A DNA stretch of 25,191 nt, taken from IMG/VR virus record IMGVR_UViG_3300005511_000076, positions 1 to 25,191 of that record; one strand, written 5' to 3'. The position numbers and the translations under genes are program-made. Positions 112 to 25,158 of the stretch are shown here, in pieces. The DNA is from a virus. Within the stretch, counting starts at the first letter, position 1. Each line of letters opens with the position of its first letter. The notes beneath the pieces were generated by a model. It had not been told where the DNA came from. It saw nothing but the letters and a program-made list of their open reading frames with translations, and did not search any database.

Positions 112-139
112 TTGGTGCGAGGGAGGGGACTCGAACCCC
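112..139. repeat. Left attachment site (tRNA-Leu 3' fragment)
   Basis: These 28 bases are identical to 25071-25098 and diverge at base 140. On the minus strand they read as the T-arm, the 3' acceptor strand and CCA of a tRNA-Leu, with no D-arm or anticodon arm beyond them, so the fragment is not a functional tRNA. It marks where the phage joined the chromosome on the left. Confidence 0.93.
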
Positions 140-167: not shown

Positions 168-185
168 AGCGTATGGCGCGCGTAA
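168..185 (+). promoter_or_regulatory. Left integrase arm-type site pair
   Basis: Two copies of a GCGTA-centred 7-mer, AGCGTAT at 168-174 and CGCGTAA at 179-185, are 11 bp apart and in the same orientation. The same core occurs five times at the other end of the prophage. The location, 28 bp inside the att core, and the helical spacing suggest binding of the integrase N-terminal domain. This is inference from pattern only. Confidence 0.5.
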
Positions 186-23545: not shown

Positions 23546-23644
23546 ATGGAAACAGCGGCACAAGCACTACTGGCACTCACGCGCAAGCATTGGAATCTGG
23601 AGAAGGAAGATGAGCGAGCAGGAACTACTCGACCGAATCATTGA
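23546..23644 (+). CDS. Possible 32-residue small ORF
   Basis: ATG 23546 opens a short frame (METAAQALLALTRKHWNLEKEDE at its start) that fills the gap between the methyltransferase and the next gene and overlaps that gene by 35 bases. The ribosome site is weak. The first half looks like a helix of a real small phage protein, the second half is dictated by the overlapping gene. It may equally be chance. Confidence 0.25.
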   Translation: METAAQALLALTRKHWNLEKEDERAGTTRPNH

Positions 23645-23918
23645 GGAGCTGGACAAGCGGATCAAGCCGGCGCCAGTCTCTGCTGTGCCGCTGGAGGTTC
23701 AGCTCTGGTCTACCAAAGAGATCGGCGAATACCTACAGCGGCCGGCGCAGGTCGTACGTGATCGCGTCGTCTCTGTGCCTGGATTCCCAGAGCCGATCCG
23801 CCTGCCGAACGGCGATGGCCACGGCAAAGCCTATCCGCGATGGAAGGCGGTCGAGGTTATCAAGTGGGCCGAGTCCTACCAGGGTGGCAAGATGGGGCGC
23901 CCGCGAAAGGCTGACTAG
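23610..23918 (+). CDS. Probable excisionase / AlpA-like DNA-binding protein
   Basis: The 102-residue basic protein has a short acidic N-terminal helix and then a MerR/excisionase-like segment: LWSTKEIGEYLQRPAQVVRDRVV, a loop GFPEPIRLPNGDGHGKAYPRW, and a helix AVEVIKWAESY. This matches the winged-helix layout of AlpA and Xis proteins, where the central PxPIxL...W element is common. It has a good ribosome site (GGAGAAGG) and ends tail-to-tail with the integrase, overlapping by four bases. That position supports a role in directing integrase toward excision. Confidence 0.72.
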   Translation: MSEQELLDRIIEELDKRIKPAPVSAVPLEVQLWSTKEIGEYLQRPAQVVRDRVVSVPGFPEPIRLPNGDGHGKAYPRWKAVEVIKWAESYQGGKMGRPRKAD

Positions 23919-24919
23919 TCCAGTCGCTTTGCCAGTTCCTCGGCCGATTCGTTGTAGTAGGTGCGCAGTTCGCTCAGGTTGGTGTGGCCCGTCATCCGGG
24001 CCAACGCCAGCACATCGAGCTTCTTCGACAGCCGGGTAATTGCCTCGTGCCGGGTGTCGTGAAAGGTCAGGTCGGTTATGCCGGCCTTTTCTTTTGCCTT
24101 GCGAAACAGTGCATCACGACTGGCTGACGGCAATGCGAACAGCGGCTTACCTTCGTCGACGGCCGGCAGCATCTTCAGCAACTCCACAGCGCGCGTGGAT
24201 AGCGGCACGTCCCGCGCCCCGCCGTTCTTCGTCAGCGGCAGATGAGCGACCCGCCGCACGAGATCGACGGTGCGAGATGTCAGCCCGAGGATTTCGCCCG
24301 AGCGCATGGCTGTCTCGATGGCGAACAAGAAGCAGACCGCCACGCGCTGCGACGACAGCCGCACCGGCATGCCTTCCTGGTACCCGAGCGCGAGCGTGAT
24401 GGCCTCGATTTCCTTGTCCGATATCAGCCTGTCCCTCGGCGGCGAATCAGGCGGCCGGCGGACATTCTTCATCGGGTTGTGGGTCAGCCAGCCCCATTCC
24501 TCGTGCGCCACCTTGAAGGCGTGAGACATCAGGGACATTTCCCGGGACACCGAGGCGCCTGCAATATCCCGTTCGCGCGCATCACGCCAGGCGGCGATAT
24601 GGGAAGGCAGCAGATCGGTCAGCTTGATGTCGCCGAACTTGCGCCCTTGCACTTCCTTGTCGGCAATTAGCGACAGTCGGATCACTTCCCAGCGCTCGCC
24701 GCGCTTCGATGGGCTGACCTTCTCGGCATAGGTGGAGAGCGCATCCCGGACGGTATGGGTCTTGCTGCCTTGGCCGCCGCTGATGGATCGCAGCTCGGTT
24801 TCCCGCTTGGATGCCCAGGCTTGCGCCTCAGACTTTGTATCGAATGTCTTGGAATCCCGAGTGCCCTGGACGTAGACCTCGGCGCGCCAGCCGCTTTTGA
24901 TCTTCCGGAAGGAAGCCAT
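23915..24919 (-). CDS. Tyrosine-recombinase integrase
   Basis: The 334-residue integrase inserts and excises the prophage at tRNA-Leu. The catalytic set is complete: Arg206 (ETAMRSGEILGL), Lys231 (LTKNGGARDVPLS), His287 and Arg290 (FHDTRHEAITRL), His312 (GHTNLSELRTYY) and Tyr321. The N-terminal 50 residues (FRKIKSGWRAEVYVQGTRDSKTF) look like a three-stranded arm-binding domain, followed by a SAM-like core-binding domain at about 55-140. Full length, no visible damage. The start codon overlaps one of the presumed arm sites, and a promoter lies among the others, suggesting that the protein limits its own synthesis. Confidence 0.95.
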   Translation of the reverse strand: MASFRKIKSGWRAEVYVQGTRDSKTFDTKSEAQAWASKRETELRSISGGQGSKTHTVRDALSTYAEKVSPSKRGERWEVIRLSLIADKEVQGRKFGDIKLTDLLPSHIAAWRDARERDIAGASVSREMSLMSHAFKVAHEEWGWLTHNPMKNVRRPPDSPPRDRLISDKEIEAITLALGYQEGMPVRLSSQRVAVCFLFAIETAMRSGEILGLTSRTVDLVRRVAHLPLTKNGGARDVPLSTRAVELLKMLPAVDEGKPLFALPSASRDALFRKAKEKAGITDLTFHDTRHEAITRLSKKLDVLALARMTGHTNLSELRTYYNESAEELAKRLD

Positions 24920-24979
24920 GCGTAACCCCTGCGTAAATTTCGCGTAGTGCCGCGTAGTTTAGTGGGGTGCCGTGCGTAA
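24919..24979 (+). promoter_or_regulatory. Five phased arm-type sites (YGCGTAR) upstream of integrase
   Basis: Copies of TGCGTAA or CGCGTAG start at 24919, 24930, 24941, 24951 and 24973, all in one orientation. Spacings of 11, 11, 10 and 22 bp place every copy on the same face of the helix. A related pair lies inside the left att site. Arm-binding repeats flanking the core are characteristic of lambda-type integrases, so these are probably integrase, and perhaps excisionase, binding sites. Confidence 0.65.
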
Positions 24980-24985
24980 TTTCAA
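24956..24985 (-). promoter_or_regulatory. Candidate integrase promoter
   Basis: On the minus strand TTGAAA (24985-24980) and TAAACT (24961-24956) are separated by 18 bp, a fair sigma-70 promoter pointing into the integrase gene. An arm-type site fills part of the spacer and another overlaps the -10 edge, so bound integrase would block RNA polymerase. Confidence 0.5.
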
Positions 24986-25070
24986 GGTGTTTCATCTACC
25001 ACACGAAGTACCGGAATCCCTTGCAAACACGTGGGATGCCGTCTATATTCGCGCCGTGTGGCAATGAGGT

Positions 25071-25098
25071 TTGGTGCGAGGGAGGGGACTCGAACCCC
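25071..25098. repeat. Right attachment site within tRNA-Leu 3' end
   Basis: These bases repeat 112-139 exactly. They encode the 3' strand of the T-stem and acceptor stem plus CCA, so integration at this end leaves the tRNA gene whole, with its 3' end facing the integrase, as expected for tRNA-targeting phages. Confidence 0.93.
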
Positions 25099-25158
25099 TA
25101 CACCATTGCTGGCGTCAGGACCTAAACCTGGTGCGTCTACCAATTTCGCCACCCTCGC
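25072..25158 (-). tRNA. tRNA-Leu, anticodon UAG
   Basis: The 87-nt minus-strand gene begins GCGAGGG and ends CCCTCGC followed by encoded ACCA, giving a 7-bp acceptor stem. The D-loop contains GGTAGACGC, the anticodon loop reads TTTAGGT with UAG in the centre, a long variable arm marks it as class II, and the T-loop is TTCGAGT. It would read CUA leucine codons. The outermost anticodon-stem pair looks like a C-A mismatch, which is tolerable. It is the intact copy of the integration target. Confidence 0.95.

Follow-up and report, generated by a model that had tools for sequence, protein, structure and literature searches.

The window analyzed here, the whole stretch of 25,191 nt, is a prophage record that carries on its minus strand a gene for a tyrosine integrase of 334 amino acids (int, positions 23,915–24,919). 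The protein matches the integrase profiles PF00589 (E 1.4e-20; 74.2 bits, cut-off 27.1) and phrog_1 (E 2.8e-56). Tyrosine recombinases are recognized by the catalytic signature R..K..H-x-x-R..H..Y, and in an alignment of 20 sequences R206, H287, R290, H312, and Y321 were invariant while K231 and Y322 were conserved in at least 90%. The structure model (mean pLDDT 86.9) places 3 strands (residues 2–7, 10–17, and 20–26) and a helix (residues 29–47) at the N-terminus, with block pLDDT values of 86 to 92, and this predicted beta-beta-beta-alpha layout fits the fold of an arm-binding domain (PMC8138268). The assignment is based on the predicted strands and helix because the structural aligner (Foldseek) barely covered residues 1–46; the Pfam profile Arm-DNA-bind_4 stayed below its cut-off (12.4 versus 22.3 bits). 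From the core-binding domain onward the model aligned with lambda Int over 242 residues (Z 18.3, rmsd 2.6), and it also matched Tn1549 Int. A sequence search of the PDB with the integrase returned 3 weak matches, one of them a capsid protein.

Upstream of int and on the same strand lies a tRNA-Leu gene (anticodon tag; positions 25,072–25,158, identified with ARAGORN), the integration target. At its 3' end lies the int-side copy of the att core (25,071–25,098, minus strand), a 28-bp exact repeat of the copy at the distal prophage end (112–139, minus strand; positions 108–139 match at 97%). The int-side core and int are separated by 151 bp, part of which is occupied by the repeats described below. 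Searching phage-record DNA with the window returned only distant matches to the integrase and tRNA-Leu regions.

Phased GCGTA repeats at the two prophage ends

Five copies of the word GCGTA start on the plus strand at positions 24,920, 24,931, 24,942, 24,952, and 24,974, forming a putative int-side (P'-type) arm array at 24,920–24,979 whose first site touches the ATG of int. Read in the orientation of int (minus strand), these sites have a TACGC core: TTACGCA, TTACGCA, CTACGCG, CTACGCG, and TTACGCA. Two further plus-strand copies start at 169 and 180, roughly 30 bp inward from the distal core, and make up a candidate distal (P-type) arm pair (169–184, minus strand in int orientation) that reads TTACGCG and ATACGCT. 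All 7 sites thus share one orientation and resemble TTACGC(A), and the left pair agrees with the int-side motif in 11 of 14 letters. These positions bear out what had been proposed from the sequence-only reading, namely 7 copies on one strand with steps of 11, 11, 10, and 22 bp at the right and 11 bp at the left. The description of the repeat as a GCGTA-centered 7-mer was looser, since only the 5-mer stays constant and the flanking letters vary between copies.

The bare word is not enriched: GCGTA occurs 44 times in the window against a mean of 35.2 in shuffled sequences, 6 of 100 of which reached 44, and we discarded this non-significant count as evidence. Clustering and phasing gave a different picture. 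Five same-strand copies fall within 60 bp at the right end, where the maximum in 1,000 Markov simulations of the window was 3. Same-strand pairs spaced 10 to 12 bp apart number 4 in the 25-kb window, 3 in the right array plus the left pair, compared with a simulated mean of 0.085 per window and at most 2 in 400 simulations. Of the expectation that the motif would be rare in the interior, therefore, the part concerning the bare word fell, as this is equally common there, whereas the phased words are confined to both ends.

A constant spacing with variable letters among related integrases

We gathered integrase homologues from viral and genome contigs as well as from 299 genomes belonging to a single family, 109 of which gave a match. 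In this way the integrase was located in 123 loci (63 plus 60, the latter hand-chosen from homologue matches, mostly those starting near residue 1). Thirteen were removed (11 for want of usable sequence upstream of int, L018 because it equals L017 over the stretch compared, and L036 because of its broken N-terminus), and exclusion of 26 near-duplicates from the remaining 110 left 84 non-redundant loci. Alignment served to set the start codons, of which a few (L127, L080) are probably in error. A repeat at a lag of 11 bp with at least 6 of 7 letters identical was present within −60 to +3 of int in 68 of the 84 loci, and in 49 of them the identity was 7 of 7. The phased repeat thus abuts int in most relatives, as predicted for sites conserved with the integrase. 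A repeat by this criterion was found in 1 of 84 coding and 3 of 84 far-upstream control regions, and shuffled sequences gave a mean of 3.1 and a maximum of 11; the lags beside 11 showed a far smaller excess among the 84 loci. At this threshold and in this interval, 16 of the 84 relatives had no lag-11 repeat. A few of these probably have a misassigned start, as in L127, where the array lies further upstream. The end of the second repeat copy had a median position of −13 from the start codon among the family loci.

The letters of the repeat vary by integrase group (TTACGCA, CCCCA-type, TTACGCC, TTACACC, TGCACC, TGTCCAA, TGTCACC, and others) and the lag of 11 bp is kept; it is the spacing, then, that is conserved and the sequence that varies. 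In a 4-way alignment of the window with its nearest homologues with upstream sequence (L020, L007, and L078), the 4 int-proximal sites are kept in all 3 relatives (one reads TTCGC in L007), together with a −10-like box and a CAAGGG-TT element, and most other sequence has diverged. The outermost fifth site is weakly conserved, surviving in L020 as a degenerate form. As a separate observation, 22 of the 84 loci carry a second phased array, whose repeats have a lag of 10 (and 20) and lie directly inward of the core at about −170 to −87 upstream of int (for example L023, L067, and L078), compared with a mean of 3.4 and a maximum of 8 in shuffled sequences. These are possibly excisionase sites; no such lag-10 array was seen in the window.

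We then compared the 2 ends within elements. Distal ends were examined in 18 elements, 3 of which had no core repeat (G002, G004, and G295), leaving 15 to be scored. In 14 of the 15, a pair with 10- to 12-bp spacing that resembles the element's own int-side motif starts 46 to 66 bp from the core. Scoring each int-side motif against its own distal arm gave a total of 170, compared with a mean of 143.7 for permuted partners (sd 4.9, maximum 161 in 20,000 permutations; p = 5e-5 for the 15 elements). Two of the 15 elements failed this own-motif test, G016 (9 versus 9.07 on others) and G204 (8 versus 10.21, with a doubtful core). No other result argues as strongly as these matched distal pairs that a single DNA-binding protein of the element recognizes both arrays; the simplest candidate is the integrase.

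Halfway along the second predicted strand, residue 14 varies with the motif. It is E in 19 of the 70 loci with clear repeats, and as raw counts a CGC motif accompanies E14 in 18 of 19 loci and other residues in 3 of 51; R14 goes with a TCC motif in 11 of 15 (read by eye from the residue/motif table). On a tree built without the N-terminus and with few columns, the E14/CGC association comprised 2 independent pairs on supported branches and 6 on all branches, and the R14/TCC association 1 and 3, respectively. Four loci go against the rule (L009 and L011 with Q14, L130 with L14, and L079 with E14). A residue-14 recognition code was therefore dropped as an established result, being phylogenetically insecure, and it stays a lead because the independent phylogenetic contrasts are few. 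Tentatively, the domain that binds the arms and the DNA word that it reads may evolve rapidly together in this integrase family while the 11-bp register stays fixed. Hundreds of natural domain/site pairs would then be readable from the sequence alone, and a recognition code linking residues to bases might be extracted from them, with residue 14 among its determinants (E for CGC, R for TCC).

Probable binding by the integrase and predicted control of int

Position, phasing, conservation with the integrase, matched ends in 15 elements, and the predicted N-terminal arm-binding fold all support the proposal that the phased repeats are integrase arm-type sites. Going by sequence and structure model, we consider it very probable that they bind the prophage's own integrase. 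The N-terminal 3-stranded sheet would dock on TTACGC(A) words that follow each other at intervals of one helical turn, 4 or 5 of them on the int side (P') and 2 on the distal side (P), and the core-binding and catalytic domains would act at the 28-bp tRNA-Leu core. With its N-terminus on the arms and its other domains on the core, the integrase would bridge arm and core in an intasome, as lambda Int does. Co-operative binding and intasome bending, which the sequence-only reading had derived from the common orientation and helical face, would be expected by the same analogy; we infer binding, bridging, bending, and repression alike.

Repression concerns int itself. A predicted int promoter of weak consensus (9 of 12 positions) lies at 24,956–24,985 on the minus strand, with TTGAAA (24,980–24,985) and TAAACT (24,956–24,961) separated by 18 nt. 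One arm site falls inside the spacer and a second one shares the final base of the −10 box; counted from int, the first 4 sites of the right array reach from the ATG up to this box. The −10 box is kept as TAAACT in L020 and L078 and reads TATACT in L007, and across 70 loci −10-like hexamers peak 8 to 12 nt before the first repeat (19 versus about 5 from the control density). Coverage of the predicted promoter and start codon, a point absent from the sequence-only reading, suggests a second role of the array in int autoregulation: integrase bound there should repress int, a step that we hold to be somewhat probable. The layout is that of KplE1 (STI), with the tRNA gene followed by int on the minus strand and the predicted int promoter inside the arm array, and from this sequence arrangement and the analogy, autoregulation as in KplE1 is likely.

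Operators, too, sit where the right array does, between the predicted −10 box and the start codon, and excisionase sites are likewise helically phased direct repeats (PMC7498355). The repeats could accordingly be operators through which another regulator, a phage repressor or an excisionase, represses int, the integrase not being the binder. This is improbable, as a matched pair lies at the far prophage end by the other core, where there is no int promoter, and arrays are present in 3 elements with no match to the 102-aa ORF described below (G004, G005, and G151). If instead the right array is of arm type and the left pair a chance match, the true distal arm sites would lie elsewhere. The left pair is imperfect (TTACGCG/ATACGCT), and 2 unphased GCGTA words within 60 bp are common by chance; however, this pair is the sole phased one in 25 kb outside the right array, and the distal pairs of the relatives lie equally far from the core, which makes such a coincidence unlikely.

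That the repeats before int are low-complexity or translational signals, present by chance or shared ancestry, is the least probable reading and in our view barely credible. Related loci are indeed not independent, and some arrays overlap the ribosome-binding region, but from group to group the motif takes on other letters and keeps its 11-bp lag, and neither the control regions nor the neighboring lags show a comparable excess. Sites for the integrase thus remain the preferred explanation of both arrays.

Between the core and the right array, the element CAAGGGATT (25,015–25,023, minus strand) contains the CAAGGG-TT letters that are invariant in the 4-way alignment. Placed like the H' site of lambda, it is a possible IHF (H'-like) site, of which the window would hold an imperfect copy. 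CAANNNNTTR is concentrated at −150 to −60 across the integrase family, and the window copy fails at the last position. IHF matches of at least 8 of 9 positions occur at −140 to −60 in 13 of the 84 loci (shuffle mean 2.3). A strict IHF site in the window was rejected, the best match to WATCAANNNNTTR in this interval being 6 of 9.

Relation to known systems and neighboring features

Lambda Int is likewise a heterobivalent tyrosine integrase with arm-type sites in both arms and a duplicated core; here, in contrast, the target is a tRNA 3' end, the words are of GCGTA type in one orientation, and the array reaches the int start codon (PMC4880445). KplE1 shares the order of tRNA, core, arm sites, and int on one strand and the overlap of arm sites with the int promoter, but its arm sites have TAAA in common where ours have TACGC, and repression of its own gene by IntS from the arm sites was measured there and is predicted here (PMC2951348). 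In the attP of cluster K mycobacteriophages, pairs of 11-bp arm repeats flank the core, phage Pixie having a direct pair on one side and 3 repeats on the other, and integrases related to one another use different arm motifs and have different N-terminal residues 17/19; that work concerns predicted sites in a handful of phages of an unrelated host group, whereas ours is a family-wide series (PMC3203893). IntS of ICEMlSymR7A has 5 P/arm-type motifs, all of them stated to be needed for efficient integration there, and bound IntS stops intS transcription, so that it represses itself; the consensus differs (TGKTGGTATC), and the element is conjugative with a remote rdfS (PMC11963761). Already in print are arm-type sites, 11-bp repeat pairs, sites in direct orientation, and divergent motifs in related integrases (PMC3203893, PMC4880445). 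What extends this knowledge is the combination of an unvarying 11-bp register with motifs that switch fast and are matched at the two ends. Our search of the open-access literature found no paper surveying arm-site motifs family-wide for this integrase group, which is no proof of absence as most subscription papers were outside its scope, and the available portions of PMC12884075 and PMC13023037 contain nothing on arm sites.

Arm-type sites have usually been mapped by footprinting, phage by phage. In most of a large integrase family they are readable here beside int from the 11-bp phasing, together with the matching pair at the far end. This would allow complete attP prediction for integrases used as tools, supply a natural data set on DNA reading by a small beta-sheet domain, and predict which int genes repress themselves.

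On the other side of int, a 102-aa ORF (23,610–23,918, plus strand) is convergent with it. It belongs to phrog_4996, of unknown function, and has homologues in 15 of the 18 elements, beside the int stop in 11. Searches of Pfam, NCBIfam, and PDB gave no match for it, and its model is poor (mean pLDDT 62.3). Its position beside the int stop makes it a candidate excisionase, and its naming as a recombination directionality factor is a guess.

In the left host flank (1–107), just outside the distal core, we observed a hairpin-like sequence, TTGCGGAAGGGCAA, followed by T's (in minus or plus reading), and a similar stem lies outside the distal core in other elements (G001 and G116). This may be the terminator that belonged to the tRNA gene, moved away from it by the insertion. 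G116 has a longer core repeat some 37.4 kb downstream of int: it runs over 139 bp at an identity of 96%, which would fit tandem integration of a second related element or of what is left of one.
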